Shown one piece after another: positions 998 to 51,825 of a stretch of 53,509 nucleotides of DNA; the stretch's first letter is position 1, and each line of letters opens with the position of its first letter. The notes beneath the pieces are model-generated. The model did not search any database and was not told where the DNA came from. It saw only the letters and a list, made by a program, of their open reading frames with translations. The position numbers and the translations under genes are program-made. The stretch is from Gammaproteobacteria bacterium (GTDB taxonomy: Bacteria; Pseudomonadota; Gammaproteobacteria; Ga0077536): assembly GCA_016209015.1 (NCBI GenBank), contig JACQWY010000043.1, positions 1-53,509 of the forward strand. Reading direction: 5' to 3'.

Positions 998-2971
998 ATG
1001 AATTTCCGATATGCGCCGCTGGCGCTCGCTCTTGTCCAATGCTCGCTCAGCGCCGCGCCGACCGCGAGCGGCGGCGGCGACGACATCGTCGTCACCGCAT
1101 CCCGCATGCCCGTCACGCTCGCCGAGGCGGGCAGCTCCGTCACCGTCGTCACGCACGAGGAAATCGAGCAGCGCGGCGCGACTTTCCTCACTGATCTGCT
1201 GCGCGACGTGCCCGGGCTCGCGGTCAGCCGCAGCGGCGGCGTCGGCCGTTATGCGCAGGTGCGCATGCGCGGCGCGGAGGCGAACCAGGTGCTCGTCCTC
1301 ATCGACGGCGTGAAAGCGAACGACCCGACGCGCGACGACGCCTTCGACTTCACGCACCTCCTCGCCTCGAACATCGAGCGCGTGGAAATCGTGCGGGGTC
1401 CGCAGAGCGCGCTGTGGGGCAGCGAGGCGCTCGCGGGCGTGATCAACATCGTCACCGCGCAGCGCAAGGAGCCCTGGCACGCCGACGTCGCGGTCGAGGG
1501 CGGCTCCTTCGACACCTACGGCTTCAACGGCAGCGTCGGTCACGCCGGCACGAATCATCACGTGAACCTCGGCGTCGGCTACTACGACACCGGCGGCGCG
1601 AACATCTCGCGCACGGGCCCGGAGCGCGACGGTTATCGCAACACGACGCTGAACCTGAAAGGCGACTGGTCGCCGATCGACGCGCTGCGCGCGGATTTCA
1701 CGGCGCGCGTGCTGGATGCCAAGACGGAATACGACAGCACGGACTTCACGACCGGCATCCCCGGCGACACGCCCGGCATGACGCATCTGCTGCAGAGCTT
1801 CCTCGGCGGCCACGTGCAATGGGGATTGTTCGACGAGCACTGGGTGCAGGATCTGTCCGTGAACTGGAGCGGCGTGCGCAATCGCGATACCGATCCGGCG
1901 ATCTTCGATCAGCGTCGCACTTACGGCAATCGTTACGGCGTGAGCTACCAGAGCACGTTCGCGTTCGCGACGCCCGGCCTCCTCGACGCGCACCACACGT
2001 TCACGGCCGGCCTGGACTACGAGCGGCGCGATTTCCGCCAGCGCGCGCCGGCCTCGATCTTCGGCGATCCGAATCAGGATCGCGAGCTCGACGTGCTCGG
2101 CTACGTCGGCGAATACCGCATGCGCTTCCTGACGTCGTGGCTGTTCGCGGCGAGCGCGCGCTACGACGACAACAGCGATTTCGCGGACATCGGCACCTAC
2201 CGCCTGTCGCTGACGCGCGACTTCAAGGAGACGGGCACGAGCGTGACGGTCGCCTATGCGACCGGCCAGAAGGCGCCGACGTTCTACGATCGCTTCGGCT
2301 TCTCGAGCGGCGGCTCGTTCGGGCCGGTGTTCATCGGCAACGCGAGCCTGAAGCCGGAACGTTCCCAGGGTTACGAAGTGCACCTGAGCCAGAGCCTGCT
2401 GGCGGAGCGCGTACGCCTGAACGCGACCTGGTTCCGCGAGCGGCTGGAGGACGAGATCAACGGCTATGTCGCGGACGCGACGGGCGCGACGGCGACGGCG
2501 ATCAACCTGCGCGGCACGAGTCCACGCGAAGGCGTGGAGCTCGAGGGCGAGGCGCACCTCGACACGCACTGGTCGCTGCACGCCGGCTATACGTATCTCG
2601 ATTCGCAATCTCGCAACGCGACGACGAGCCTGCTCCAGCACGCCGTGCGCCGGCCGCGCCACAGCGCGAGCGGCAGCGTGAACTATGCGTTCGACGGCAA
2701 GCGCGGCAACGTCGACGTCCACGTCACGCACACCGGCGATCAGGCGGACGATTTCTTCCCGCCGCCGTTCTTCGCCGCCCAACGCGTGACGCTCGCCGAC
2801 TACACGCTCGTCGGCGTCTCGGCGTCGTGGAAAGTATTGCCCCACGTCTCCGTCCTCGGCCGCCTCGACGACCTCGTCGATCAGCGCTACGAGGAAGTCT
2901 ACGGCTACCGCAGCGAAGGCTTCGGCGCGTTCCTCGGCGTCCGCTTCGATACGAGCGCCCTCGGCCTGTAA
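998..2971 (+). CDS. btuB: TonB-dependent vitamin B12 outer-membrane receptor
   Basis: A 657-aa outer-membrane transporter predicted to import cobalamin using TonB energy. The ATG at 998 follows an AGGAGA ribosome site (986–991), and a short hydrophobic signal peptide covers about residues 1–20. A TonB-box-like DDIVVTASR follows, then the plug domain with NQVLVLIDGVKAND and VEIVRGPQSALWGS-type motifs, and then the β-barrel. The assignment to B12 rests on the BtuB-like plug and on the cobalamin riboswitch just upstream. The protein ends in ...VRFDTSALGL, so the usual terminal aromatic residue is a few residues internal. A longer frame reads upstream through the riboswitch but is not a plausible start. 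Confidence 0.92.
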   Translation: MNFRYAPLALALVQCSLSAAPTASGGGDDIVVTASRMPVTLAEAGSSVTVVTHEEIEQRGATFLTDLLRDVPGLAVSRSGGVGRYAQVRMRGAEANQVLVLIDGVKANDPTRDDAFDFTHLLASNIERVEIVRGPQSALWGSEALAGVINIVTAQRKEPWHADVAVEGGSFDTYGFNGSVGHAGTNHHVNLGVGYYDTGGANISRTGPERDGYRNTTLNLKGDWSPIDALRADFTARVLDAKTEYDSTDFTTGIPGDTPGMTHLLQSFLGGHVQWGLFDEHWVQDLSVNWSGVRNRDTDPAIFDQRRTYGNRYGVSYQSTFAFATPGLLDAHHTFTAGLDYERRDFRQRAPASIFGDPNQDRELDVLGYVGEYRMRFLTSWLFAASARYDDNSDFADIGTYRLSLTRDFKETGTSVTVAYATGQKAPTFYDRFGFSSGGSFGPVFIGNASLKPERSQGYEVHLSQSLLAERVRLNATWFRERLEDEINGYVADATGATATAINLRGTSPREGVELEGEAHLDTHWSLHAGYTYLDSQSRNATTSLLQHAVRRPRHSASGSVNYAFDGKRGNVDVHVTHTGDQADDFFPPPFFAAQRVTLADYTLVGVSASWKVLPHVSVLGRLDDLVDQRYEEVYGYRSEGFGAFLGVRFDTSALGL

Positions 2972-2972
2972 C

Positions 2973-3063
2973 TTATCAACAGGGGTCGGAGGGACTTTTG
3001 CAAAAGTCCCTCCGACCCCTGTTGATAACTGCAAAAGTCCCTCCGACCCCGGTGGATAACTTG
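2973..3063. repeat. Palindromic repeat, family A (copy 1); possible terminator
   Basis: 2973–3028 is a perfect 56-bp palindrome centred at 3000/3001 (half-site TTATCAACAGGGGTCGGAGG plus GACTTTTG). A half-copy follows at 3031–3060 (CAAAAGTCCCTCCGACCCC then GGTGGATAAC). It begins 1 nt after the btuB stop, so the transcript could fold into a very long hairpin that ends or insulates btuB. Related copies lie at 10517–10656, and a divergent relative is at about 33255–33320. Confidence 0.85.
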
Positions 3064-3135
3064 ATCCGTTGCGTGGCTGGATCGACGACCGACGTGCACA
3101 ATGTGGGGTCTCCAAGCACCTCCACGGAAGATTTC

Positions 3136-9864: not shown

Positions 9865-10257
9865 CTACCAGAGGCCCGCGCCGCGCCCGAGCAGCGCACC
9901 CGAGCCGACGAGCAGCACGAGGAACGTGAGGTTCGTGCCGATGAAGCGGCCCGGCGACACGCCGCGGCTCTTCAAGAGCCCCTGCGCATGCAGCAGCCGC
10001 GAGACGACGAGCGTGCCGCCGAGCGCCGCCGGCAACCACGCCGGCCCGATCTTTCCGGTCTCGACGAGCATGATCAGTACGAGCGCGAGCGGCACGTATT
10101 CGACGAAGTTCGCATGCGTGCGCACGCGCAGCGCCATGTCCTCGTTGCCGCCGTCGCCGATCCCGATGCCGTATTTCGCCCGCGCCGCGATCACCCAGCC
10201 GCTCAGGACGAGCAGCAGGATGCCGAGACAACCGGCAGTGATGAACGTTGCAGTCAT
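9865..10257 (-). CDS. MAPEG family membrane protein
   Basis: A 130-aa integral membrane protein with four hydrophobic segments. The loop MALRVRTHANFVEYVPLALVL is the MAPEG signature (membrane-associated proteins in eicosanoid and glutathione metabolism). SRLLHAQG and the C-terminal hydrophobic helix also fit. Bacterial members are often glutathione transferase-like, but their substrates are mostly unknown. It converges with the diguanylate cyclase gene, ending 9 nt from it. Confidence 0.9.
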   Translation of the reverse strand: MTATFITAGCLGILLLVLSGWVIAARAKYGIGIGDGGNEDMALRVRTHANFVEYVPLALVLIMLVETGKIGPAWLPAALGGTLVVSRLLHAQGLLKSRGVSPGRFIGTNLTFLVLLVGSGALLGRGAGLW

Positions 10258-10516
10258 GGTGTCCCTTCTCTCGTGACGATGTGGCGCCTCGTCGGCGACA
10301 TAGAATCCTGGCGCAACGGCAGCGATGAGGCAAATCGGCTGCGCTCGCCCTCGGCACGACGGGGAATCCGCGGCCCCGGGGCCACGAGGCGTCGCGGTCG
10401 CCTCATCTGCTCGCGGCTCACGTCAGGCAGTGATCGGGGCGCGTGTGACGTCCGACGGTGGCGGCATAGGGTCCGGGCCTGTCGGAAAGGCGTGCTGGAA
10501 GGCCCGGCCGGCCCAA

Positions 10517-10656
10517 CTTACCCACAGGGGTCGGAGGGACTTTTCAAAACCCCCTCCAACCCCGGTGGATAACTCCGCGCTTATCAACAGGGGTCGGAGG
10601 GACTTTTCGAAAAGTCCCTCCGACCCCTGTGGGTAAGTTGACCCCTGTGGGTAAGT
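10517..10656. repeat. Palindromic repeat, family A (cluster of copies); possible terminator
   Basis: Several family-A units are packed here: an imperfect unit at 10517–10572, a perfect 44-bp palindrome at 10587–10630 (arm ACAGGGGTCGGAGGGACTTT plus TC), and a trailing half-unit at 10639–10656 ending in GTGGGTAAG. It ends immediately at the stop codon of the seven-gene vWA/PEGA cluster and could act as that operon's terminator. The rest of the gene-free stretch 10258–10516 shows no gene; weak frames there are out of register with the local codon bias. Confidence 0.82.
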
Positions 10657-10657
10657 T

Positions 10658-11656
10658 TCAGCGGAAGGCGTTCAGGCCGACGAACGTGCCGCCGTTCTTG
10701 CCGGTGATTTCGCGCATCAGCGCGGCGAAGCGGATGCCGGTCGTCTGGCGCTGAGGGGCGTTCGCGAACTGGGTCGGGAAGCCGACGGCGTGGATGCGGA
10801 TGAGCGGGGCGCCGCCGTCGCCGGCGTGATTGAGCTTGTGGACGTAATCGACGACTTCCTTGATCGACTTGCCCGTGAACTCGTCGCCGTAGACGAAGAG
10901 GCTCATCTTCGTACCCGGCCGGTAGAGCTGTTCCATGGCCGTGTAGATGCCCTTCGAGGGACTGCTCTCGCTGAAGACGTTGAAGCCGCCGAGCTGGCTC
11001 ACCATCTGCCGGCGCAGCTCGGGCGAATCGGACATCCACTGGCCGGCGAAGCCCTGGAACAGATACGTGCCCTGGTCGCTCATGATCTGGATGCCCTTCA
11101 CGTGCGGATACACCTGCAGTGTCTGCATGATCTGGTCGAGCACTTTCGGCCAGGCGTAGTTGAACATGCTGCCCGAGGTGTCGATGACGAACACGATGTA
11201 TTCGCTGTCGACCGGGATGCCGCCGATCATATTGTCCTTCGGCGGCCGCCGCCGCGCCTGCAGCCGGCGCATCTCGTCCGTCAGCTCCTGCTGCGCGACC
11301 TTCAGCTTACCGGCGATCTCGGCGTTCATCGCCGCTTCGTTGTCCGCGTTCTTCAGCCGCCCGGTGAGCGCCGCGATCCGGCCCTCGAGCTTCGCGAGCT
11401 CGGCTTCGGCCGCGGCGAGCTCGCGCTGCTTCGCCGCGCTGTCCTCGGCGGCGACGGCGGCGGCGTCGCGTGCCGCGAAGAGCTGCCGCTGCAGGCCCGA
11501 GATCTCCGCCGTGCGCGGGTCGATCTCCGGCCGCTTCGCGGTCGCGATTTCGATCTTCGTGATCATCATGAGCAGGATCACCGCCCCGAACGCGCAGGTG
11601 ATCACGTCCAGGAACGAGATGTTCGTGTCGTTCAGCTCGCGGCGCTCGAACTTCAT
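10658..11656 (-). CDS. vWA-domain protein with ExbD/TolR-like membrane anchor
   Basis: A 332-aa protein. Residues ~14–34 form one transmembrane helix beginning SFLDVITCAFGAVILL, with an Asp (D17) in the position seen in ExbD/TolR-type anchors (FIDVM). Residues ~50–135 are an Ala/Glu-rich coiled coil. The vWA domain starts at about residue 150, and its MIDAS motif is intact (VIDTSGSM, D159). The topology implies a periplasmic vWA domain that binds a partner through a metal ion. It is the last gene of the seven-gene cluster, and its start overlaps the stop of the upstream vWA gene by 4 nt (ATGA), indicating translational coupling. The precise function is unknown. Confidence 0.85.
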   Translation of the reverse strand: MKFERRELNDTNISFLDVITCAFGAVILLMMITKIEIATAKRPEIDPRTAEISGLQRQLFAARDAAAVAAEDSAAKQRELAAAEAELAKLEGRIAALTGRLKNADNEAAMNAEIAGKLKVAQQELTDEMRRLQARRRPPKDNMIGGIPVDSEYIVFVIDTSGSMFNYAWPKVLDQIMQTLQVYPHVKGIQIMSDQGTYLFQGFAGQWMSDSPELRRQMVSQLGGFNVFSESSPSKGIYTAMEQLYRPGTKMSLFVYGDEFTGKSIKEVVDYVHKLNHAGDGGAPLIRIHAVGFPTQFANAPQRQTTGIRFAALMREITGKNGGTFVGLNAFR

Positions 11657-12735
11657 GGCCAGTCGTACGAAGGGGTGAGGAAGGAGCCGCGCGTGGTCAT
11701 CGCGATCTTCCAGTATGCGGAAGCCGCGTGAGGGTCGCCTTCCATCGGCAGCAGGATCGTATTCACCGGCACACCGGGCGGCAGCAGCGCCGCGGCTTCC
11801 TCGAACAGCTCGAGCCGCTTCGCGCCCGAGACCGTCGGCGTCGTGACGGGTTTCAGCCCCTGCGTCGGCAGCTTGTCCGTGATGAGGAAGACGTTGTCCG
11901 GTAATGGAGAAAGGCGCGCGACGGCCTGGAACGCCGCCGCGAGGTTCGCGCCGCCGTCCGGCACGCGCTGCTTGAGACCCGCCACCGCGCGGTTCAGCGT
12001 GTCGACCTCGCCCGCGTCGAGCCAGCGGCCGTCGGAATCGGGCACGAGGGTGTGCGCCGTGTTGTCGTAGGCGATGAGCTGGTAGCGGCAGCTCGCCGGG
12101 AAGCGCGCGGTGATCCAGTCGACGACCGCGAGCGCCTGCTGCCATTTCTCCGAGCGGCGCTTCGCCGCGTCGTCCATGTTCCGCTTGCGCACGACGTTCA
12201 CGATGCTCGAATCCAGCATGCTCGCCGAAACCGCGACGATGACGACGATGCGCCGGCCGCCGAGCTTGATGCCGGTGAGGTATTGCCGGTTGCCGGCCCC
12301 GGCGAACGTGCGGATCGCCTCGGAGTGTTCGTTCAACTGCGATTCGAGCTGATGCTTCTCGGCCTCGAGCTTCTTCACCGCCGCGCGCAGCAGCTCGATG
12401 TCCTTCGCCGTGACGAGCAGCGGCTGCGGCGTCGCGCCTTTCTGCGCCTCGGCGAGCTCGCCGCGCGCATCGACGATGCGCTGGCGCAGCGCCGCGAGCT
12501 GCGCCGCGACGTCGCCGCCCTTCGCCTGCGCGTCCTTCGTCTGCCGCGCCGCGCCGCCGATCTCGCCCTGGAGCTGGTGGATCTCGGCGTCGAGGTCGTA
12601 GCTCGGCGGATGCTGATCCTGGTTCACCTGATGACGCGTGATGAGGAAGACGAGCAGCACCGCGCCGAAACCGCAGCACATCACGTCCAGGAACGCGAAC
12701 GTGAAGACGGAGAACGTGCGCCGGCTACGCGGCAT
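11653..12735 (-). CDS. vWA-like protein with ExbD/TolR-like anchor and degenerate MIDAS
   Basis: A 360-aa paralogue-like partner of the downstream gene, with the same architecture. Its transmembrane helix contains FAFLDVMCCGFGAVLLVFLI (D17, residues ~12–32). A coiled coil follows (~48–140), then a vWA-like fold. Where MIDAS should read DxSxS, this protein has AVSAS (residues 168–172), so the metal-ligand Asp is missing. The later segments (RYQLIAYDNTAHTLVPD, DNVFLITDKLPT) keep the vWA strand pattern. It probably forms a heteromeric pair with the intact vWA protein. Its start overlaps the end of the Hsp70-like gene by 11 nt. The function is unknown. Confidence 0.83.
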   Translation of the reverse strand: MPRSRRTFSVFTFAFLDVMCCGFGAVLLVFLITRHQVNQDQHPPSYDLDAEIHQLQGEIGGAARQTKDAQAKGGDVAAQLAALRQRIVDARGELAEAQKGATPQPLLVTAKDIELLRAAVKKLEAEKHQLESQLNEHSEAIRTFAGAGNRQYLTGIKLGGRRIVVIVAVSASMLDSSIVNVVRKRNMDDAAKRRSEKWQQALAVVDWITARFPASCRYQLIAYDNTAHTLVPDSDGRWLDAGEVDTLNRAVAGLKQRVPDGGANLAAAFQAVARLSPLPDNVFLITDKLPTQGLKPVTTPTVSGAKRLELFEEAAALLPPGVPVNTILLPMEGDPHAASAYWKIAMTTRGSFLTPSYDWP

Positions 12736-14023
12736 CGGGTGCGAGCACCGTGATGGCGACGAAGGACCCGCCCGCGCCGCTGAAGCTCACGTGGTCGCCC
12801 GCGGCGAGCGCGGCGGGGGCGGCGAGCGGCATGCCGTTGACGAGCACGTGCGCGCCGTCGAGTGCCTCGATGCGCGCGCCGTCCGGGCCGGCGCAGACGC
12901 GGCACACCGCGTCGAGCTCGCGGACACGGGCGAGACGTCCGCGCGGCGCGAGGTAGAGCGGCTCGGCGGCGAGCGCGTGGGCGTGGTGGTTCACGAGCAG
13001 ATGCGTCGCGCGGTCGTGAGTCGTGCGCGCGGCGCGCGAGACCGTCGCGTCGGGTGCGGCCGGCAGCTCGGTGACGAGCTGGCTCGCGGCGCGGCCGCCC
13101 GCGAACACCTTCTCGTGCAGCGCGAGCCCGCAGAACACCGCGTCGTCGGGTAGCTCGAGCGCACCGCGACACGCGGCGGCGAAACCGGGCAGCGCCGCGA
13201 CGCGCTCCGTCGTCACGAGCTGCTCGCCGGGCGCGAGCTGGCGCACGATGTCGGCGAAGAGCGGTGCCGCTGCTCGATCGAGCGCGGCACGATCGACGCG
13301 TGCCTCGAAGCGGCTGCCGCGGAAATCGACGTGCACGCGCAGCTCGCCGCGGTGCGCGAGCAGCGCGAGCCATTCCGACAGGTGCGTGTAGAGCAGTTGT
13401 TCCGTCGCCGCATGCGCGAGCGGATCGAAACGCGCCTGCACGAGGAAGGCCGCGACGATCGCGCGCACGCACGCCGTCTCGAGGCGATTGCGTCCCGCGC
13501 CCGGCACGATCTCCACACCGCGCCGCGCGATCCGGTCCGTCACTCTCAGACGGGTGATCAGCGCCTGGTGCTGCTGGAGCTCGAGGAACGCGTAGTCGCC
13601 GGGCGCGAGATGCGGCGCGCCCGCCGCGACCGCCGCGTCGACGAGGCCGACGGCCTTCACGCCCGCCGCTTCGCAGAGCCCGAGGAGCAGCGCGAGCTCG
13701 GTCTTGCCGTAATGCCCGGGCACCGCGAACACCGCGGCCTCCGGATGGCCCGCGAGCTCGCGCACGTGCTGGAGATGCAGATACGCGAGATCCGCGTGAT
13801 GGCGGCAGCGCTTGCCCCAGCCCGGCAGCGGCGTCTCGCTCAACTGCTGCCAGAAGCGGTTCAGGGTCTCGCGCGGATGCAGGAACGCCTGGCCCGCCGC
13901 GGCACGGCCGATCTCGATCTGACGCTTGCGCACGAGCGCGTAGCCCGGGCTCGCCGCGATCACCTGCTGGCCGCGTGCGGCGCGCACTTCGACGTCGTTC
14001 AATTCGATGCTGCAGAGGGCCAA
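12725..14023 (-). CDS. Hsp70/actin-fold-like protein, probably a pseudo-ATPase
   Basis: A 432-aa protein with segments resembling the Hsp70/actin ATPase fold. AVFAVPGHYGKTELALLLGL corresponds to the VPAYF...R.A region, followed by AAGVKAVGLVDAAVAAG, as in Hsp70 proteins. The first phosphate loop (DLGTT in DnaK) is replaced by SIELNDVEVRAARG, so ATP hydrolysis is doubtful. The last ~80 residues (ARIEALDGAHVLVNG...AAGDHVSFSG) look like a small FHA-like β-sandwich. I chose TTG at 14023 because AGGAGA (14030–14035) precedes it by 6 nt; GTG at 14041 is the alternative. It is predicted cytoplasmic and lies in the middle of the cluster. The fold assignment is by pattern only. Confidence 0.68.
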   Translation of the reverse strand: MALCSIELNDVEVRAARGQQVIAASPGYALVRKRQIEIGRAAAGQAFLHPRETLNRFWQQLSETPLPGWGKRCRHHADLAYLHLQHVRELAGHPEAAVFAVPGHYGKTELALLLGLCEAAGVKAVGLVDAAVAAGAPHLAPGDYAFLELQQHQALITRLRVTDRIARRGVEIVPGAGRNRLETACVRAIVAAFLVQARFDPLAHAATEQLLYTHLSEWLALLAHRGELRVHVDFRGSRFEARVDRAALDRAAAPLFADIVRQLAPGEQLVTTERVAALPGFAAACRGALELPDDAVFCGLALHEKVFAGGRAASQLVTELPAAPDATVSRAARTTHDRATHLLVNHHAHALAAEPLYLAPRGRLARVRELDAVCRVCAGPDGARIEALDGAHVLVNGMPLAAPAALAAGDHVSFSGAGGSFVAITVLAPDAA

Positions 14024-14037
14024 GGGCGATCTCCTGG

Positions 14038-14265
14038 TCACATGTCGGACGGAATGGCCACGGGGAAATCCTCCGGCAGGCTCTCCGCCGGCGTGAACGT
14101 GTCCGTGGGCAGCGGACGCGAGTGGTATTCGGGACGATCGGCGTCCTGCGCCGGATCGACGCTGTCGTCGCCTTGCGGTGCGTCGGCCGCGCGTGCGGCA
14201 TGCAGGGTGACGCTCGTGCCCGCGAGCGCGGCGAGGAGCAGGAACAGGCGGAGCTCATTGCGCAT
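14038..14265 (-). CDS. Small exported protein of unknown function
   Basis: A 75-aa protein with a clear signal peptide (MRNELRLFLLLAALAGTSVT, cleavage probably after the ARA near residue 26). The mature part is an acidic, proline-rich peptide of about 49 residues without recognisable domains. Its ATG overlaps the end of the PEGA–FGE gene by 11 nt, and its stop lies just before the ribosome site of the Hsp70-like gene, so it is part of the same operon. The overlaps argue that it is real despite its size. It may be a small periplasmic component of the complex. Confidence 0.65.
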   Translation of the reverse strand: MRNELRLFLLLAALAGTSVTLHAARAADAPQGDDSVDPAQDADRPEYHSRPLPTDTFTPAESLPEDFPVAIPSDM

Positions 14266-16495
14266 AGCGGGCGATCCTGAAACCGAGATCGTTGCGCGGA
14301 CCCTGGCCGGCCGCGCGTGCGGCGAGCCGCAGCAGGGCGGGATCCGCATCCGCCCAGCTCGAGCCGCGCACGACATGCTGCGTGCCGCTCGCGGGGCCGA
14401 GCGGATCGACCTGCACGCCGGGCGTGTCCTCGGCGGCGTGGAAATCGTGCACCCATTCCGCGACGTTGCCGGCCATGTCGTAGAGGCCGCGCAGATTCGG
14501 CGGATAGCTGCCGACCGGCGCGCTGCCGGCGAAGCCGTCCTCGTAACCGGGGATCACTTTGCCGATGAGCTCACGCGCCGCGAGATCCGCGAAATTGCCG
14601 ACGCGTCCGCGCGGCGGGAACGGTCCCGTCCACGGCACGTGCAAGGTCTCGCCGTCCGGCGTCGTGCGCGCCGCCCATTCCCATTCGGCTTCCGTCGGCA
14701 GGCGGTAACCCGTCGCTTCCGGATGCACGCCGAGCACCTTGCCGTATTTGATCTGGTAGAACACCGGCAGCTTGTCCTGGCGCGAGAGCCAGTTGCAATA
14801 GAGCGCCGCTTCCTCCCAGCTCACGTTCGCGACCGGCAGGCTGTCCGCGTTCAAATCCGCGGTCCCGCTCGCGCCCGAGGAATGCGTGGTGACGAACTGC
14901 CGGAACTCGCGGTTCGAGACTTCGCGCACCGAGATCCAGAACGGACGCGACAGGCGCACCTGGCGCGCGATCTCGTTCGTCCGATGGCCGGGATCGCGGG
15001 CGATCGTGCCCATCAGGAACTCGCCGCCCTCGAAGCGCTTCAGCTCCTGGCCCGTGAACGTCTTGCGGAGCGGTTCTTCCTGAGGCGGCGTCGCCTGTTT
15101 CGTCTCGGCCTCGACGAACTCGACCTCGCCCTGCGGCGCCTGCTTCGCCGCCGGGGCCGCGTTCGACGGCGCGGCGGTCGGCGATCCGGCGGTCGACGCT
15201 GCCGGCGCAGCGGCCGTCGCTTGCGCCGGCGGCGCGGGTGGCGGCGGCTCGGGATTCGCGGCGAGCTCGGCCTGCATCTCCGCGGCGGTCTTCAATTCGA
15301 TCCGCAGACGCTTCTCCACGCCCCGGCGCGGCGTGACCGTCGTCTGATAGCTCGCGTAGCCGCGCTTGCGCACGACGAGCTCGTGCTCCGTCGTCGGCAG
15401 GCTCAGCACCTGCGTCGCGCTGCCCGCGGGCTGGCCGTCGACGAGGAGCTCGGCGTCGGCCGGCGTCGTGTCGAGGCGGACCGGCGCGAGCTCGGGCGCG
15501 AGCGTCACGGCGAGCGCGCGCACTTCGCCGGACGCGACGCGCAGCGTGCGCTTCTCCGCACCGTAACCTTCCTTGAACGCGGTGAGATCGTGGTCGGCGT
15601 CCGGCGCGAGCGCGAGGCGCTGCGGCGCAACGCCCGCGTAGCGTCCGTCGATCGTCAGCGCGGCGCCCGGCGGGTCGCTCGTCACGTCGAGCGTGCCGTC
15701 GGCCTTCTCGAGCACGACGTCCTTGAACGCGACGGGCTGGCCCGCGACGACCTTCACGTGCCTGCGCCAGGGCTTGTAGCCTTTGAGCTCCACGGTGAGC
15801 TCGCGCTCGCCCTGGATCAGCTCGTGTCGGAGCGGTGTGCGGCCGGCGACGGTCCTGTCGATCGTCACGATCGCCCCGGCAGGCTTCGTCGTGAGCGTGA
15901 ACGCGGCCCAGGCCGGCACGAGCGTCGCGGTGAACGGCTGGGTCTCGCCGCGGCCTGCGACCTCGAGAGTCGCGGTGAACGGCAGATAGCGTTCGGATTT
16001 CACGACGAGCTCGCGGGTGCCGGATTCGACGTCCGCGACGATGCCGGGTGCCTTGCCCGCGGGTTTGCCGTCGATGTCGATCGTCGCCTCGACCGGCGGG
16101 TCGAGCTTCACGTCGAGCCTGCCGGGCCGCGGCTTCATGACGATCGGCAAGACCTGGTGCGCGTCGCTGCCGACGTGGATCGTGCCGTGATAAGGGAGAT
16201 GGCCCGGCGCTTCCGCGCTCACTTCGTGCTCGCCCGGCAGCAGCATCCAGTGCGAGGAGACGCGCGGCGCGAAGCCCAGCACCGTGAGCTTCGCGTCCGG
16301 TGGCGAGAGATCGAAATCGATCGAGCGCGCGGCGAGCACGTACCAGGCCGTCGCGAGCGCGAGTGCGAGCCAGGCCGTCGTGAACATCCGGCGCCAGGGC
16401 AGGCGCAGCTCGGGCAGGTGCGCGAGCGGCCCGGGCGGCCGGAAGCGCACGGGCTCGAGCGGTGTCTCGGGCGGCATGCCGGCGGGCGAGTTCAC
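14255..16495 (-). CDS. Membrane protein with five PEGA repeats and a sulfatase-modifying-factor (FGE-like) domain
   Basis: A 746-aa protein starting at GTG 16495 (GAGGAG at 16506–16511). A short cytoplasmic N-terminus and one transmembrane helix (TTAWLALALATAWYVLAA) precede five PEGA-type β-modules with the pattern xDPPGAxLxIDGxxxGxxP. A long Pro/Ala linker follows, then a C-terminal FGE-sulfatase domain (EGGEFLMGT, YRLPTEAEWEWAAR, GLYDMAGNVAEW, VVRGSSW). The catalytic cysteines of true formylglycine-generating enzymes are absent: the end reads SSWADADPALLRLAARA. The domain is therefore likely a binding module. PEGA modules usually face the cell envelope. It is a central gene of the seven-gene cluster. 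Confidence 0.86.
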   Translation of the reverse strand: MNSPAGMPPETPLEPVRFRPPGPLAHLPELRLPWRRMFTTAWLALALATAWYVLAARSIDFDLSPPDAKLTVLGFAPRVSSHWMLLPGEHEVSAEAPGHLPYHGTIHVGSDAHQVLPIVMKPRPGRLDVKLDPPVEATIDIDGKPAGKAPGIVADVESGTRELVVKSERYLPFTATLEVAGRGETQPFTATLVPAWAAFTLTTKPAGAIVTIDRTVAGRTPLRHELIQGERELTVELKGYKPWRRHVKVVAGQPVAFKDVVLEKADGTLDVTSDPPGAALTIDGRYAGVAPQRLALAPDADHDLTAFKEGYGAEKRTLRVASGEVRALAVTLAPELAPVRLDTTPADAELLVDGQPAGSATQVLSLPTTEHELVVRKRGYASYQTTVTPRRGVEKRLRIELKTAAEMQAELAANPEPPPPAPPAQATAAAPAASTAGSPTAAPSNAAPAAKQAPQGEVEFVEAETKQATPPQEEPLRKTFTGQELKRFEGGEFLMGTIARDPGHRTNEIARQVRLSRPFWISVREVSNREFRQFVTTHSSGASGTADLNADSLPVANVSWEEAALYCNWLSRQDKLPVFYQIKYGKVLGVHPEATGYRLPTEAEWEWAARTTPDGETLHVPWTGPFPPRGRVGNFADLAARELIGKVIPGYEDGFAGSAPVGSYPPNLRGLYDMAGNVAEWVHDFHAAEDTPGVQVDPLGPASGTQHVVRGSSWADADPALLRLAARAAGQGPRNDLGFRIARYAQ

Positions 16496-16514
16496 GTTCG
16501 CGGGGCTCCTCGCA

Positions 16515-18044
<1,530 letters not shown>

Positions 18045-18219
18045 GCTCGCTGGGCTTTTGTCTGTGAGGTTCCGGAGCGGGGCCGGGAGCTTCAGCGCCG
18101 GAGGGCCTCCCGGCGCACGGCCGCGTCTGTATTGCGCATGGACCGCGAAACGCGTGCTCCGTTCTGCGCTCTGCGCAAGATGCGGGCGGCGCCGGCGCTT
18201 TGCAATGCGGGGGCCACGC

Positions 18220-19143
18220 TCACTGTTTCGCGCCCGTGCCGCTCACGTAGCGGCGGTATTCCGCCCACAGCTTCTCGCGCAGCACGGGATCGCGTTCGGC
18301 CTCGGCGGCGTGGCGCATCTGCGCGGCGACGATGTCCTCGAGCGCGGTGCCGCCGGGCGCCGTCGGATCGCCTTCGGTGGCGAGCGCTTTCTCGTCGTCG
18401 CTCGTGCGATCGCCCGCGTGCTTGCCGGGGACGCGGCCCTTGCCGGTGTTCCGGCCCGGCACGCCGCCGCGGTCGATGTCGGCGGCCGCGGGCCCGGCGG
18501 CCGGCTTGCCGGTACGCGCCTCCTCGTCCTGCGCGCGCCGCATCTCGGCGTCGAAGTCGCGCTTCTTCGCCTCGAGCTTCTGCATCTCGGCGGCGGCACC
18601 GCCCGGCGGGGGTTTGAAATCGATCGGCGGATACTTCGAGTCCGGCGCCGGGGGCGGGACCGGCGCGACGCGGCCCATGGACTGACCCGCGGGCGCGTCG
18701 GGCTGCTGCATGCCGGGCGGCGGCAGGTAGGTCGGGGCACCGGCGGTCGTCGGCATGTTGCCGCCCTCGTCACCGGCGCTCTTCGCCCGCGCGCCGCCCG
18801 CCGCGCCGCCGTCCGGTGGCTTCGCGCCGCCCACGGTCTCGCGCCGTGACGCGTTCGCGGGCGTGGTCTGCGGGGGCGGGCTGCCTTCCGGCGCCTCCGT
18901 CATCTCGACGCGCGCGCCGCGCGCACTCGGCGGCAGATACGCGGGGGCAGCGCCCGCGGCGCCGCCGGGCTTGCCCTGGGTCGTCTGCTCGCCGGGCTGC
19001 GCGCCGGGCACCATCTCCGGCTTCTTCTCGACCTCGACGTAAGTCTTCTTCTTCGGCTGGGCCTCGTTGCAGCCCGCGAGCGCGAGGGCGAGCACGGCGC
19101 AGAGCAGGGCGCGGGAACGGGAGGGTCTCGAGATGCGTGACAT
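18220..19143 (-). CDS. Proline-rich lipoprotein, first gene of the vWA/PEGA cluster
   Basis: A 307-aa protein with a lipoprotein signal (hydrophobic run then LAGC, lipidated Cys at 25; Asn at +2 would not force inner-membrane retention). The mature chain is low-complexity (Pro, Gly, Ala) from about 35 to 190, with repeats of AYLPP / TYLPPP. A charged helical segment (EMQKLEAKKRDFDAEMRRA) and a C-terminal helix follow. No known domain is recognised. The length and composition suggest a tether across the periplasm. It leads the cluster from a promoter at 19171–19179, and 175 nt separate it from the TPR gene; I see no gene in that gap. Confidence 0.78.
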   Translation of the reverse strand: MSRISRPSRSRALLCAVLALALAGCNEAQPKKKTYVEVEKKPEMVPGAQPGEQTTQGKPGGAAGAAPAYLPPSARGARVEMTEAPEGSPPPQTTPANASRRETVGGAKPPDGGAAGGARAKSAGDEGGNMPTTAGAPTYLPPPGMQQPDAPAGQSMGRVAPVPPPAPDSKYPPIDFKPPPGGAAAEMQKLEAKKRDFDAEMRRAQDEEARTGKPAAGPAAADIDRGGVPGRNTGKGRVPGKHAGDRTSDDEKALATEGDPTAPGGTALEDIVAAQMRHAAEAERDPVLREKLWAEYRRYVSGTGAKQ

Positions 19144-19179
19144 GACGCTCTCCGAATGGGCTTCGGAGTCTTTATATCA
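19144..19179 (-). promoter_or_regulatory. Extended −10 promoter and ribosome-site hairpin of the vWA/PEGA cluster
   Basis: On the minus strand TGATATAAA (19171–19179) is an extended −10 element (TGnTATAAA), about 30 nt before the lipoprotein ATG. Between the two lies a perfect 7-bp hairpin: CTCCGAA (19162–19168), loop GCCCA, TTCGGAG (19150–19156). Its 3' arm contains the GGAG ribosome site, spaced 6 nt from the ATG at 19143. The transcript should therefore carry a hidden ribosome site. No good −35 is visible, as expected for an extended −10. Confidence 0.6.
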
Positions 19180-19223
19180 GAACGGCGAACGCGCGGGCCT
19201 GACGCCCGCCAAGCGCGCGGCGA

Positions 19224-19652
19224 TCAGGCGGGGATGCGACCGAAATCGTCGACCATGAAGCTCGCCTCGGCGCTCGCCACGAGACTGCCGTCGTCCTGCC
19301 GCGTGAGCTTCGATTCGAGGACGACGAGGCGGCTCTTGCGCTGCTTCAGCACGCACTCGGCGCGGATCGGCGTGCCGACCGGCAGCGGCTGGCGATAGCG
19401 GATTTCGCACTTCGCGGTGAAGCCGCGCGCGCCCTGCAGGAACAGCCAGTTCGCCATCACGTCGTCGAGCACGCTGAAGAGGATCCCGCCGTGCGTGACG
19501 CCGTCGAAGCCCGCATGCCACTTGCCCGGCGTGAACTCGCCGACGCAGAGCCCGCCGTCGAGGCGGAAGCGGATGTGCAGCCCGAGCGGGTTGTCGGTCC
19601 CGCAGACGAAACAGTGGTCGGCGTCGTTCCGGCCGCGCGTGTCTTCGCTCAC
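19224..19652 (-). CDS. PaaI-type hotdog thioesterase
   Basis: A 142-aa hotdog protein. CFVCGTDNPLGLHIRFR at the N-terminus, HGGILFSVLDDVMANWLF (the PaaI motif with HGG and a catalytic Asp) and the following sheet pattern identify it. It should cleave a cytoplasmic acyl-CoA or acyl-ACP. Its GTG start at 19652 overlaps the stop of fabY (19649–19651), so the two are translationally coupled and may share a role in fatty-acid initiation or proofreading; that link is inferred. Confidence 0.88.
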   Translation of the reverse strand: MSEDTRGRNDADHCFVCGTDNPLGLHIRFRLDGGLCVGEFTPGKWHAGFDGVTHGGILFSVLDDVMANWLFLQGARGFTAKCEIRYRQPLPVGTPIRAECVLKQRKSRLVVLESKLTRQDDGSLVASAEASFMVDDFGRIPA

Positions 19653-21541
19653 ACCATGTCCTCGTAGCGGTTCGGGAGATCGAGATTCACCGCGCCCGCG
19701 ATGCCCGGCAGGCGCAGGCTGTGTCCGTCGAGCGCGATCTGATCCTCGTTGCCGAGATCGTCGCCGAAGCGGTAGACGGGTTTCAGCGGGCCCTGCATGC
19801 AGCGCTCGTCGTAGGCCGCCGCCGCGGCGCGCACCGCTTCGCGGCGCGTCTGGTAGGCGCGCAGCGCGGTCGCGCCGTAGCGCTTCGCGAGCATGCGCTC
19901 GACGACGCGCGGCGAGACGATCGCACCCGTCGCGTTGTTGCCGCCGAAGCCCTTGGAATTGAGGAAGCCGATTTCCGCTTTGCCCTTCAGGTCGCGATCC
20001 TCGAGCACGATGTCGAGGTGCTCCGGGTGGATGTCGTCGGCGAGCTTCGTGACCGTCTTGATGCCGGGCAGCAGCTCGTGCTTGAAGATGCCGAGCGTGT
20101 TCACGAGCTGGTCCGCGCTCGCCGGCGCGAGCGAGTGCCCGAGGAAGGCCTTCACCGCGGTCACCGGCCAGTGCTCGATGCCGAACGCCGCCGCGACGCG
20201 ATCGAAGATGCGCGATTCCGTGACGCGATTCTGCGGCGTGCTCGAGCCGTGCGCCTGCAGGAAGCTCTGCGTGCGGACGGCCTCTTCGCCGAGGAGGCTG
20301 CGCATCGCGGCGACGGCCTTCGCGAGCGTGATGTAGTTGCCGGGCCCGGGCGAGGAGATCGATTTCTTGTAGCCGTCGGCGTTCACGAACACGTCGGTCA
20401 CGCCGCCGTGGATGTCCGCACCGAGCTGCATCGCGAGCTCGTCGTCCATCAGCACGAAGTACTGCGCGGACTCGGCGAGGACGAAGCCGCAGTTCTCGCC
20501 GAACGGCCGGCTCGCGCGGCGCCAGTCGGGGATCGTCGTGCCGTCGAGCTTGCAGAGGTTGTCGTCGGTCGCGAGCGCGCTCATCGCCGCATAGCCTTCG
20601 ATGACTTCGGGGAGCAACGGTGCTTCCGCGTTGCCGACGACCGCGACGCGGCGGCGGCCGGACTGGATGTCCTCGACGGCGAGACGCAGGTTGTAGAGGA
20701 AGCTCGCGCAGGCGCCGGCGATGGCGCCCGTCGTGCCGACGTTGCCGAGCACGTAGGCGTTCACGAAATCGGCGGGCATGGTGTTCAGGCCGAGCGGAAG
20801 CTGCTTCGAGCTCACGCGTCCGCCGCGCAGCCGCGCCTGGAGCATGCCGCCCGTGCCGTGCTGGTCGAGCTGCGCCATGGCGCTCGAGGCGTAGACCGAG
20901 ACTTCGTCGGGCGGCACGGCGGCGAGGATCGTCTCCCAGGGAAGGCCGACCGACTGGATGGCGTCGGAGGCGCCGACGATCGTCATCTGCAGACCCTTGG
21001 GATGAAAGCGCGACTGGTAGAGCTTCGCGGGATCGAAACCGCTCGGGAGCTGGCCCGCGGACTGCACGGCGAGCTTGCGGTGCGTCTCGACCTTGATCTC
21101 GCTGCGCGCGGTGAGCTCGATGTGCGCGACGCCGTCGACGACCTCTTTCACGACCCAGCCCGGGGGCAGGGGATCCGGCAGCTCGCCGGTGCGCGAGGCG
21201 AAGTGGACGGGCGCGCCGTCGGGACCGATGTCGAAGTTGAGATTGCCCGGCACGCGGTCGGGATCGAAATGCTCGATGCGGCGGATGAGCGTGCCGTCGA
21301 GGATGCGCTGGCGGTAGTGCAGCGCGATGCCGGCCTCGTCGAGCGTCCGTCCGTCGGCGTCCCGGTAGGCGCCGTTCTCCCAGGTCACGAGACCCATCAT
21401 AACCGCCAGCGAGCTGAGCGTCCGCGCCTGGACGGTCGCCGGCAGGCTGTCGATGACGGTGCGGCGATAGGCGTGGTGGAACGAGGAGCGGCCGGCGGGC
21501 CCGATGCCCCCGAAGCCGACGATAACCGGGAGTCGTGTCAT
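19649..21541 (-). CDS. fabY: β-Ketoacyl-ACP synthase, FabY type
   Basis: A 630-aa condensing enzyme. The N-terminus MTRLPVIVGFGGIGPAGRSSF and the unusual length match FabY of Pseudomonas, which condenses acetyl-CoA with malonyl-ACP to start fatty-acid synthesis and can replace FabH. The active-site Cys is in AGACAS (C278), and the two His are in QAHGSSTPQNR (H431) and KAFLGHS (H469), with Lys464 nearby. This is the Cys-His-His triad of FabF-like enzymes. The assignment comes from memory of the family. It is divergent from a GlxA-type regulator and overlaps the thioesterase gene downstream. Confidence 0.85.
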   Translation of the reverse strand: MTRLPVIVGFGGIGPAGRSSFHHAYRRTVIDSLPATVQARTLSSLAVMMGLVTWENGAYRDADGRTLDEAGIALHYRQRILDGTLIRRIEHFDPDRVPGNLNFDIGPDGAPVHFASRTGELPDPLPPGWVVKEVVDGVAHIELTARSEIKVETHRKLAVQSAGQLPSGFDPAKLYQSRFHPKGLQMTIVGASDAIQSVGLPWETILAAVPPDEVSVYASSAMAQLDQHGTGGMLQARLRGGRVSSKQLPLGLNTMPADFVNAYVLGNVGTTGAIAGACASFLYNLRLAVEDIQSGRRRVAVVGNAEAPLLPEVIEGYAAMSALATDDNLCKLDGTTIPDWRRASRPFGENCGFVLAESAQYFVLMDDELAMQLGADIHGGVTDVFVNADGYKKSISSPGPGNYITLAKAVAAMRSLLGEEAVRTQSFLQAHGSSTPQNRVTESRIFDRVAAAFGIEHWPVTAVKAFLGHSLAPASADQLVNTLGIFKHELLPGIKTVTKLADDIHPEHLDIVLEDRDLKGKAEIGFLNSKGFGGNNATGAIVSPRVVERMLAKRYGATALRAYQTRREAVRAAAAAYDERCMQGPLKPVYRFGDDLGNEDQIALDGHSLRLPGIAGAVNLDLPNRYEDMV

Positions 21542-47595: not shown

Positions 47596-47638
47596 AATGA
47601 CGCTCCCGCGCAGCCCTCAGCGCCGCGCGAACACCGAT

Positions 47639-47710
47639 GCCGGATTAGCACAGTGGTAGTGCAGCGGTTTTGTAAACCGAAGGTCGGGGGTTCGAATCCC
47701 TCATCCGGCA
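47639..47710 (+). tRNA. tRNA-Thr (anticodon UGU)
   Basis: A complete cloverleaf: acceptor GCCGGAT (47639–47645) with ATCCGGC (47703–47709) and discriminator A, D-arm GCAC...GTGC, anticodon loop TTTGTAA with anticodon TGT at 47671–47673, and T-arm GGGGGTTCGAATCCCTC. CCA is not encoded. The location after birA–coaX–SPOR matches the position of tRNA-Thr before tuf in relatives. The following genes here are foreign-looking, so this is a likely integration site. Confidence 0.95.
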
Positions 47711-47961
47711 AAATCCCTCGTCTCAAATCGTCCCATAACGTCCAAATACGGTTCGCGTGGAAGTCGGCGGCCACTCAGTCGACTCTTGGCGCTTCCAGGG
47801 AGGGATAAAGGCGTTTAGTAGCTGGTCCGTCAGCGGCCAAGCACGGCCGCAGTCGTTCTCCGCACAATTGGCCGGCCTACGGTTAATCGCTCATCGCACC
47901 AAGAATTCGAGTGCTGTAACCGTATCGCGATGGCTGCCATATCCAGAAGACCTGTGGCGAC
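47711..47961. other. Gap between tRNA-Thr and the restriction-modification cassette
   Basis: This is 251 nt of less GC-rich sequence marking the junction to the acquired cassette. The frame 47757–47999 (+) has no family resemblance and is probably not a gene. No integrase, and no second copy of the tRNA 3' end, is seen in the window. Confidence 0.4.
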
Positions 47962-50652
47962 CTACGTGCCGAACCGCACCGCCAAGGCTGCGAGCGTGAT
48001 GTTCTCGGCGATTTCGTCGTGCGGGATCAGCACGTAACGCCACGGTTTGCCGCCATAGCTTGCCGAATGGTCTGAGGCATTCGCACACCACTTGACCGCT
48101 GCTTCCTTCTTGGCGACGACTATCGGGTCTTCAAGTTCGCCGCGCTTTTTCGGTTCCAGCATGTAGATCGCATCTGTCGCTTCCGCGACGAAGTCGGGCT
48201 GATATTCCGGACGGTCCGCTCCATTCACGTAGTAGATCTGGAATTGCCCCTTCGCGGGCTTGAACCACTTGATGGCATCGCGTTCCAAAATCACTGCCAG
48301 CTTGCGTTCGGAATCGGAATCGAATTTCTGCACCGGGTAGAGGCATCTCTTGAAGCCTCCAAATAGATACTTCGCCATGTTGCTCTTGTCCGCAGGTTCC
48401 ACCCGGTAGTTGGCGGGTGGTTCCTGTACTGAATAGGTGTAGGCACTTTGCTTCAGCTCCGTGAAGCCCTTGCTGATCCGTGCCTCGTAGCCGACAACGT
48501 CTTCCCAGTAATGCGCCTGCATCTGGGCATGAATAAATCGGGCGATATCGCGCTGATAACAGCGCAGGACTTTGCGCGTGTCTTCCTCTGAAAGGTAGCT
48601 CTTGAAATGCTGCACCGTTTGGGTCGCAAGGTCGTAGAGCAGCGCGGCGTGGTCGTCGTAGGAAACATCGTCGAAGTCCACCAGTCCGCTCACCACGTAG
48701 TCTTCCAGCCGCACCTCTTCGATGCCGCCTCCGCTCAGGGACACCACCTCGAGCTGGTTCGTGCGCAGATGCTGAATCCAAAGCTCATCAGACACCGCCG
48801 GATATTTCAGCGTGGAGAGTTCGAGCGTGAAGGGCTTGAAGCCGGATTTCACTTCGCCCTTGGGCACCACCAGAATGCGCGGAATGTCGATGGTCTGCTG
48901 CGTAACCAGTTCAACCGTCTTTGCCACCACCGCAGCGATATCGGGCGGTGCTTCGGCAACACCTTCCAAATCCAACTGTGCCGGCTGGTGTTGCTCCTCG
49001 ACCGCTTTGACGATCGCAGCTTGGATTTCGGGTTTCTTCAGGTATTCGGTGGAGGGCAAGGTCCGCGGCTGATTCTCCAGCTTGCGGATGACCTCATAGG
49101 TGATCTGCGCCACCCGCTGCTCCGCCGGCTTGGTGAAGACGGGCGCCTCATCCTGGCCAGCCAGCGTCGTGCTGCTTGTGATCTGCGCAGGCTTGAATCC
49201 CAGCTTGGTGGCCAAATGCGATTGCGAAACCACGGTGGCCGTCTTTTGCCCCAGCTCATCCGACTCCAATACCAGCGTCTGCAAATGGATGGCCGAGTCC
49301 GGTTTGTTCGCCTCGCTGATGATCTCCTGGAACTTGTCGTGGGCGACGATGTTCAGCCTATCCACCGCCATCACGCCGGTGCGCTTGCCATAGGGCAGGC
49401 GCAGGCCGCGCCCTATGGATTGCTCGATGAGGATGCGGGCATTGGCCGCCCGCAATGGCACGATGGTGTAAAGGTTGGTGACGTCCCAGCCCTCCTTGAG
49501 CATATTGACGTGAATCACAATCTCCGTCGGCTCTTCGGTGTGCTCCACCTTGAGCAGGCGCGTGATCATTTCCTCTTCTTCCGCGCCGGTCTTGCTCGAA
49601 TCCACCTGGATGACCTTGTCGCGGTAGCGCCCCTCGAAAAAGTGTTCGGACTTGATCAGCTCGGACAGTTGCCCCGCATGGGTCGTGTCGCGGGCAATCA
49701 CCAGCAGGAACGGCTTGACGATGGGGTTGTCGGTCTCGCGGGCGTAGGTCTCCAGCTCCACCTTTACGCTTTCGTGCAGGCGCACGCCATCTTCCAGCTT
49801 CAGTCGCTCGATCTCATCCAGAGACATGCCGGCCGGGTTGAAATTCTTGCGCGTTACCACCGCCGGTTCCTTGACGAAACCGTCGGCCATCGCGCGGCCC
49901 AGAGGATAGTCGTAGATCACGTTCTTGAACGCCACCGCGCCGCGCGCTGACTCCACAAAGGGCGTGGCAGTCAGTTCAAGCCCCAGGATCGGCTTCAGTT
50001 CGTTGATGGCGCGTATCCCGGCGCTCGCCCGGTAGCGATGCGACTCGTCCATCAGCATCACCAGGTCCGGCAGCCCGGCCAGGTAATCGAAGTAGCTCTC
50101 GCCGATGTATTCGGAAAGCCGCTTGATGCGCGGCGACTTGCCGCCGCGAACTTCGGAGTTGATCTTGGAGATGTTGAAGATATTGATCCGCACACCGCCG
50201 AACAGCGTGCCGCTCATCGGGTCGCGCTGATCGTAGTTGTCGCCGGTGATGATCGAAGGTGCGTTGATGGCGAACGCATCGATGCCCCGGAACACATACT
50301 TGGGATGATTGCGGTCGCTGAAGTCCGTGATCAGCTTGTTGTAGATGGTCAGGTTGGGCGCCAGCACGAAGTAGTTGTCGATGCCGTGCGCCAGATGCAG
50401 ATAGCTGATGAAGGCCCCCATCAACCGCGTCTTGCCCACACCCGTGGCCAGCGCAAAACACAGCGAGGGAAACTCGCGCTCGAAGTCGGTCACTGAAGGA
50501 AATTCGCTGCGGATCGCCTCCAGCATCGTCGCAAGATCGGCGCCCTTGCCCGGCGGAGCGATTTCCGTAATGCGGTCGAGTATCTCCAGCGAGCGGCGCT
50601 GCGGATGGCGCAAGCTCAGGCGGCCGGCAATGGCGTTGACGTGGCGGTTCAT
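47962..50652 (-). CDS. res: Type III restriction enzyme, Res (helicase-nuclease) subunit
   Basis: An 896-aa SF2 helicase with a nuclease tail. Walker A is ATGVGKTRL, motif II is MDESHR, motif III is LTATPF, and motif VI is EQSIGRGLRLP. The C-terminal region contains the PD-(E/D)xK-like EYQPDFVAEA...YMLEPKKRGE. It should translocate on or switch DNA and cut it when sites are unmethylated, acting with Mod. Its ATG overlaps the YhcG-like stop by 4 nt. The codon use and GC content are lower than in the rest of the window, supporting horizontal transfer. Confidence 0.9.
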   Translation of the reverse strand: MNRHVNAIAGRLSLRHPQRRSLEILDRITEIAPPGKGADLATMLEAIRSEFPSVTDFEREFPSLCFALATGVGKTRLMGAFISYLHLAHGIDNYFVLAPNLTIYNKLITDFSDRNHPKYVFRGIDAFAINAPSIITGDNYDQRDPMSGTLFGGVRINIFNISKINSEVRGGKSPRIKRLSEYIGESYFDYLAGLPDLVMLMDESHRYRASAGIRAINELKPILGLELTATPFVESARGAVAFKNVIYDYPLGRAMADGFVKEPAVVTRKNFNPAGMSLDEIERLKLEDGVRLHESVKVELETYARETDNPIVKPFLLVIARDTTHAGQLSELIKSEHFFEGRYRDKVIQVDSSKTGAEEEEMITRLLKVEHTEEPTEIVIHVNMLKEGWDVTNLYTIVPLRAANARILIEQSIGRGLRLPYGKRTGVMAVDRLNIVAHDKFQEIISEANKPDSAIHLQTLVLESDELGQKTATVVSQSHLATKLGFKPAQITSSTTLAGQDEAPVFTKPAEQRVAQITYEVIRKLENQPRTLPSTEYLKKPEIQAAIVKAVEEQHQPAQLDLEGVAEAPPDIAAVVAKTVELVTQQTIDIPRILVVPKGEVKSGFKPFTLELSTLKYPAVSDELWIQHLRTNQLEVVSLSGGGIEEVRLEDYVVSGLVDFDDVSYDDHAALLYDLATQTVQHFKSYLSEEDTRKVLRCYQRDIARFIHAQMQAHYWEDVVGYEARISKGFTELKQSAYTYSVQEPPANYRVEPADKSNMAKYLFGGFKRCLYPVQKFDSDSERKLAVILERDAIKWFKPAKGQFQIYYVNGADRPEYQPDFVAEATDAIYMLEPKKRGELEDPIVVAKKEAAVKWCANASDHSASYGGKPWRYVLIPHDEIAENITLAALAVRFGT

Positions 50653-51824: not shown

Positions 51825-51825
51825 G

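Follow-up and report, generated by a model that had tools for sequence, protein, structure and literature searches.

A block of seven co-oriented genes, a candidate trans-envelope machine, occupies positions 10658-19143 on the minus strand of a 53,509-nucleotide stretch of gammaproteobacterial DNA (positions 1 to 53,509 of contig JACQWY010000043.1, assembly GCA_016209015.1, lineage Ga0077536; hereafter the window). The genes are listed below with the short names used throughout, together with a block of repeats and a gene elsewhere in the same genome.

18220-19143, minus strand: LIPO, a proline-rich lipoprotein of 307 amino acids with the lipobox LAGC.
16515-18044, minus strand: TPR, 509 amino acids, assigned by a TPR_2 match and hydropathy.
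14255-16594, minus strand: PEGA-FGE, 779 amino acids, with PEGA stretches and a C-terminal FGE-sulfatase domain.
14038-14265, minus strand: SMALL, a secreted protein of 75 amino acids with a hydrophobic start.
12725-14041, minus strand: HSP, 438 amino acids, with the fold of the Hsp70 nucleotide-binding domain and an FHA-like C-terminus.
11653-12735, minus strand: vWA1, with an axle-like helix, a coiled coil and a vWA domain.
10658-11656, minus strand: vWA2, with an axle-like helix, a coiled coil and a vWA domain.
10514-10640, no strand assigned: palindromic repeats directly downstream of vWA2, in units of about 58 base pairs, with a second copy at 2970-3064.
G000:C39:153316-154107, outside the window but in the window's own genome: the motor gene, located by a motor profile search.

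Frames and coordinates bear out the preliminary description of seven overlapping minus-strand genes with one intervening gap. The overlaps at the junctions are 80, 11, 4, 11 and 4 nucleotides, and the single gap measures 175 nucleotides (18045-18219). A longer frame for SMALL, starting at 14376, would overlap PEGA-FGE. The vWA2 frame is open upstream to 12679, with the start at 11656 favoured by alignment with relatives. The promoter previously placed before LIPO found no support: a sigma-70 consensus scan of 10200-19300 on both strands returned zero sites against 0.4 expected, a weak test in GC-rich DNA.

Related loci were collected by a scan of genome contigs with vWA1, and gene-family profiles were run on all 39 of them. 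The 39 loci are a sample, because the scan takes only loci matching short peptide patterns of the query. Most are labelled as Gammaproteobacteria or members of that class; L055 is labelled as a betaproteobacterium, and L038 and L053 are labelled to phylum only. Both vWA1 and vWA2 are present in all 39, accompanied in the same order by TPR and PEGA-FGE, each of which is found in 37, the other two loci running into a contig end. LIPO is present in 33, and the remaining six run into a contig end upstream. SMALL is weakly conserved, its BLAST cluster covering 22 of the 39 loci and the window. Further genes recur in the relatives: a second lipoprotein of about 400 amino acids (LIPO2, 32 loci), a lipoprotein-like protein (CL11, 22 loci) and an M48 peptidase resembling BepA (13 loci; 2.4e-42, with a score of 145 bits that stays below the cut-off of 570). 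Family and structure searches gave nothing informative for LIPO2 and CL11. Counts for the outer genes are lower bounds, because contig ends cut the flanks in many loci. Gene order is thus conserved far beyond close relatives across the 39 profiled loci, and the retention of order rules out a chance neighbourhood.

A gene for a MotA/TolQ/ExbB-type protein, the motor, lies within the cluster in every one of the 39 related loci. In 32 of them it precedes HSP/vWA1, and in the other seven it follows vWA2 directly. The ExbB/TolQ/MotA homologue that the preliminary description had anticipated as a partner is therefore present throughout the related loci, and it was also detected in all same-family genomes tested (26/26, the window's own included, from the 30 with a vWA1 match); it shares a contig with vWA1 in 24 of these and is unlinked in the window's genome. 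A survey of 369 genomes of the class, with a motor threshold of E <1e-70 and five weak motor matches (8e-30 to 9e-25) set aside, placed vWA2 in 28 genomes, the motor in 30 and both in 27, on the same contig in 25 of the 27 (Fisher p 1.6e-36, uncorrected for relatedness). Three genomes with a strong motor match gave no vWA2 match, and one with vWA2 gave no motor match. Across the phylum, vWA2 was found in 16 of 398 genomes, and 13 of these 16 belong to a single family in a different class. Three genomes of that family (L091-L093) carry LIPO, LIPO2, TPR, PEGA-FGE, motor, vWA1 and vWA2, without HSP, and it is likely that these seven genes constitute the core set.

In two more distant sister clusters (L086:8078-17952 and L088:5122-9750), a related motor gene is accompanied by just one Asp-helix vWA protein. 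They also contain FHA proteins, a PP2C-like phosphatase and trypsin-like proteins with FHA, and L086 additionally contains a PEGA-bearing Ser/Thr kinase-like protein (domains assigned by eye in both).

The motor protein matches Pfam MotA_ExbB (PF01618, cut-off 22.9) with 45.6 bits (7.1e-12) in the window's genome and 49.9 bits (3.4e-13) in L036. Two threonines, T190 and T223, are invariant in 20 of 20 alignment rows and align with T145 and T178 of a solved TolQ, residues that we take to line the pore. The best named matches of the motor are TolQ and ExbB, and the relatives encode a partner with a TonB-type domain (described below), both of which would suit an offshoot of Tol-Pal or Ton. Such an origin is nonetheless extremely improbable: the TolQ equivalog scores of 21.6 and 25.1 bits fall far below the cut-off of 221, none of the window's seven proteins matched a TolA, TolB, Pal or ExbD profile, and the relatives give just a sub-threshold coiled-coil match to TolA_bind_tri in three of 19 vWA2 proteins.

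The two vWA proteins are the candidate axles. Each has an N-terminal hydrophobic segment (residues 7-37 in vWA1 and 11-41 in vWA2) forming an ExbD/TolR-like helix with an aspartate, Asp17 in both (vWA1, FLDVMCCGFGAVLLVFLIT; vWA2, FLDVITCAFGAVILLMMIT). The helices read FLDxxxCGFGA or near, and the helix Asp is found for each vWA protein in all 39 related loci and in the window; the automatic start of vWA1 in L091 and L092 missed it, and it lies in frame just upstream. A second hydrophobic segment of vWA1 (162-183) coincides with the region of the first vWA strand. Pfam VWA matches of the window proteins are below cut-off (E 0.0085 to 0.079), and VWA_2 is matched at E ≤0.1 by 20 of the 21 alignment members of vWA1 and 13 of the 19 of vWA2. 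The predicted vWA1 model matches vWA structures (best 1.4e-06), with a predicted local distance difference test (pLDDT) score mostly above 90 in the vWA part; searched against solved structures, the vWA2 profile gave one weak coiled-coil match. The vWA folds of the window proteins, like the Hsp70 fold discussed below, were confirmed by way of relatives and predicted models.

The metal site of vWA2 is intact (DTSGS). In vWA1 of the window, the DxSxS motif reads AVSAS, and a GGA stands where the other 20 alignment rows carry T or S at the third place, so that metal binding is expected at only one of the two sites in this copy. The pseudo-vWA assignment made earlier consequently holds for vWA1 of this genome, which is without the metal-site Asp, but does not extend to the family: DxSxS is kept in 39 of 39 related loci, and the Asp is present in all 11 of the 19 same-family loci in which it was read. 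Besides the main vWA1-motor pair, two genomes carry a further, divergent one (G009:C255 and G012:C1).

In the window's genome the motor has parted from the cluster. No MotA_ExbB match was found on contig C5, and the motor profile has exactly one match in this genome, at C39 153316-154107, which rules out loss of the gene. Identity of the encoded protein to its counterparts in L034, L033 and L030 is 64-67%. Trees of motor, vWA1 and vWA2 (FastTree, support values not considered, L086-L090 left out) alike place the window as sister to the seven loci L030-L035/L038. The motor is unlinked too in G013, of the same family, in different surroundings and with no LIPO2 found; the SDR-like and Sir2-like genes beside the C39 motor (identified by eye) offered no clue to function, and the neighbours of the G013 motor are not shared with the window's genome. 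Retention of the motor after unlinking speaks strongly for its being part of the machine. In several relatives of the same family the motor follows vWA2, at the spot that the repeats at 10514-10640 occupy in the window, and it is conceivable, as a guess, that these repeats caused the relocation. A blastn search with the breakpoint found no repeat copy in the 19 kb around the C39 motor.

The remaining proteins supply parts that could span the envelope. LIPO ends in a conserved C-terminal block, DPVLREKLWAEYRRY, and its family profile scores 1e-45 on the window protein, which is itself a member of the profile. The TPR protein (Pfam TPR_2, 6.1e-8) has a single N-terminal hydrophobic segment at residues 31-68 by hydropathy and is presumably periplasmic. 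PEGA-FGE has one hydrophobic segment (70-89) and matches Pfam PEGA (1e-46, four stretches) and FGE-sulfatase (1.6e-44). An active FGE uses a pair of catalytic cysteines. The FGE domain of the window protein has a single one, C600, and the family alignment contains one column with at least 30% Cys, filled in 35 of 37 rows; an FGE-type reaction is unlikely because of this single Cys. The domain may instead serve structurally, for which GldK would be the nearest parallel. An upstream TPR protein is encoded in 20 of the 39 loci, and the end of its profile (12 members) matches the TonB-type domain of solved TonB structures (TonB2 2k9k, 5.6e-7; TonB 2gsk, 1.6e-6); in the one member run against Pfam, no such domain was reported. 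Taken with the PEGA stalk, the TPR protein and the one or two lipoproteins, this partner fits a path from the inner to the outer membrane.

The HSP subunit differs from the other six proteins in its probable location. Its predicted model (pLDDT 91.6) adopts the fold of the Hsp70 nucleotide-binding domain over about residues 6-317 (best structural match Z 28.6, root mean square deviation 2.9, 310 residues), and the window protein has zero Pfam matches at E 1. The ATP motifs of Hsp70, for phosphate and adenosine, include DLGTT and a glycine-rich second motif. In the HSP consensus, read by eye, IELND stands in place of the former and the latter is missing. The C-terminus was judged from sequence, because the VIA-align list covers only model residues 6-317; FHA was recognised in this part in three of 23 members. 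The missing ATP motifs and the FHA-like C-terminus together make HSP best seen as a non-hydrolysing scaffold or regulator. Hydropathy identified no hydrophobic segment at its start, and the protein is probably cytoplasmic, which corrects the earlier view of all seven genes as an envelope cluster: not every part lies in the envelope. HSP is encoded in 34 of the 39 loci and is absent, with no room for it, from L041, L042, L044, L046 and L055, and likewise from L091-L093 and L096.

An FHA-like subunit raises the alternative of a sensory machine, in which a channel linked to the proton motive force would take its state from the FGE, vWA and lipoprotein components in the periplasm, with HSP as the read-out, by analogy with TagQRST-PpkA-Fha1. 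TagR is FGE-like and PpkA bears a vWA domain. That type VI secretion pathway is made of a lipoprotein, periplasmic TagR, PpkA and the FHA protein Fha1, so that its lipoprotein and FHA parts resemble those found here (PMC10482370). The clusters of L086 and L088 speak for the same idea: by eye, FHA proteins and a PP2C-like phosphatase adjoin a related motor gene there, and L086 has a PEGA-bearing kinase in addition. Set against it, no kinase, phosphatase or ABC transporter was recognised by Pfam among the window's seven proteins, and a motor gene is found instead; the putative read-out subunit is absent from the nine loci named above and carries a recognisable FHA domain in few members, whereas the motor is missing from none of the 39 loci. 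We consider a sensory machine unlikely.

The inference of a trans-envelope machine in the preliminary description is well supported by the motor partner in related loci and by the conserved order. Judging from these sequence features, the cluster probably supplies the two axles, and the parts in the periplasm and outer membrane, of a trans-envelope motor that belongs to the MotAB/TolQR/ExbBD class and is driven by protons, with the channel encoded elsewhere in this genome. In such a motor, one vWA1 helix and one vWA2 helix would lie together inside a channel-protein pentamer, and protons would pass via the helix Asp and the pore threonines. The vWA heads would then swing or turn in the periplasm and act, perhaps via their metal sites, on the stalk formed by PEGA-FGE, on TPR and on the lipoproteins of the outer membrane, and force would thereby reach that membrane. 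The TPR protein with the TonB-type domain would belong to the outer side in many relatives, and the Hsp70-fold/FHA-like protein would be a cytoplasmic accessory or regulator, probably no ATPase. The force may serve a surface structure, secretion, envelope upkeep or movement. A more specific model, to which we give an even chance, is a rotary machine, uncharacterised in the literature searched and found in at least two classes of the phylum, in which a pentameric motor turns a vWA1-vWA2 heterodimer axle with metal-dependent heads, joined to a PEGA-FGE stalk, TPR proteins (one of TonB type in many relatives), two outer-membrane lipoproteins and a non-hydrolysing Hsp70-fold/FHA regulator.

Several observations weigh against the proton-driven motor. 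Window vWA1 and vWA2 gave zero match to Pfam ExbD/TolR (PF02472) at E 1, and this family is not among the matches listed for the relatives (25 of 57 families for 21 vWA1 members, 25 of 65 for 19 vWA2 members); support for the axle role accordingly comes from topology, the helix Asp and linkage. Compared with solved TolQ, the motor shows weak similarity (0.0041), and the tree distance correlations of 0.83-0.93 may reflect species history only. The literature searched yielded no experiment on such a machine. In the window's genome, the TonB-type part has a weak match (3.6e-4) on C17, near other MotA_ExbB genes, which may be an ordinary TonB, and LIPO2 was not found in this genome (G000) while four of the seven same-family genomes searched alongside have it. 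With LIPO2 not found, the TonB partner weak and elsewhere, and the metal Asp of vWA1 lost, this copy may be altered. Outright decay, involving separation of the motor, loss of one lipoprotein and destruction of one vWA metal site, would account for the missing LIPO2, the AVSAS sequence and the motor on another contig. It is quite improbable, given that the seven frames and the motor frame are all open, that G013 shares the arrangement, that L031, L032 and L038 also have no LIPO2 between LIPO and TPR, and that the vWA2 metal site is kept.

Other genes of the window were also recorded. Immediately upstream of LIPO, at 19224-21541, lie genes for a 4HBT thioesterase and a beta-ketoacyl synthase; the thioesterase shares a BLAST cluster with frames in four related loci. 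A thioesterase, YbgC, is likewise carried by tol-pal operons (PMC12204202). At 47638-53454, a tRNA-Thr precedes genes for a ResIII-type protein and an N6/N4 DNA methylase, an arrangement like that of a restriction-modification island.

To our knowledge, few envelope systems are driven by proton-powered rotary motors, and the AglRQS system has neither vWA heads nor PEGA-FGE. AglRQS, of Myxococcus gliding, joins a single MotA-like protein to two MotB-like partners that differ from each other and both carry a membrane Asp, a likeness to the one motor and two axles proposed here (PMC9389320). GldKLMN/PorKLMN, of type IX secretion, joins a proton motor to a periplasmic ring with the lipoprotein GldK (PMC8986121). 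The GldK profile matches the FGE domain here with 107.9 bits, below its equivalog cut-off of 350, and PEGA-FGE has a membrane segment and PEGA modules instead of a lipobox. The anti-phage system Zorya has a MotA-type motor with an anchored partner. PADLOC gave zero match to Zorya for the eight proteins scanned at E 0.01. An immune system was ruled out, as the PADLOC matches were coiled-coil stretches only.

The closest description concerns vWA proteins whose pore helix resembles that of TolR/ExbD and carries an Asp; most occur as heterologous pairs, they are tightly linked to tolQ-like genes, and no function is assigned to them (PMC12204202, Mol Biol Evol 2025). AlphaFold 3 models in the same article have two Asp residues meeting a threonine ring in vWA-motor complexes (PMC12204202). 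Its TPH-vWA/TolQ-like class, from Proteobacteria and Verrucomicrobia, has the same heterologous pair of Asp-helix vWA proteins and a tolQ-like gene, as in 39 of 39 loci here, and no tolR/exbD (PMC12204202). The cluster family described here is likely the TPH-vWA family, sampled there from Idiomarina homologues, as compared by text description only. The text on that class names no PEGA-FGE, Hsp70-like, lipoprotein or TonB-domain partner, nor an unlinked motor (PMC12204202). PEGA, FGE, formylglycine, sulfatase, Hsp70 and DnaK have zero occurrences in its main text, and lipoprotein occurs 16 times, none in section 8 (PMC12204202). The earlier statement that no such system had been described must accordingly be narrowed: vWA pairs with tolQ-like genes were reported in 2025, while the gene set with PEGA-FGE, Hsp70-like protein and lipoprotein does not occur in that text (PMC12204202). 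The full gene set was not found in the open-licence literature searched, a scope that leaves preprints, figures and supplements outside. The novelty lies in the complete gene set, in a subunit of Hsp70 fold whose ATP motifs are not recognisable, in the partner with a TonB domain and in a motor gene unlinked from the cluster.

Haliea, Pseudoteredinibacter isoporae, Litorivivens lipolytica and Exilibacterium tricleocarpae are among the related loci, so that knock-outs are thinkable. The cluster makes it testable whether two different axle proteins share one motor, a question that is open for AglRQS (PMC9389320). If the proposed motor is real, it would add a proton-powered envelope motor with a nearly complete parts list, from the inner to the outer membrane.

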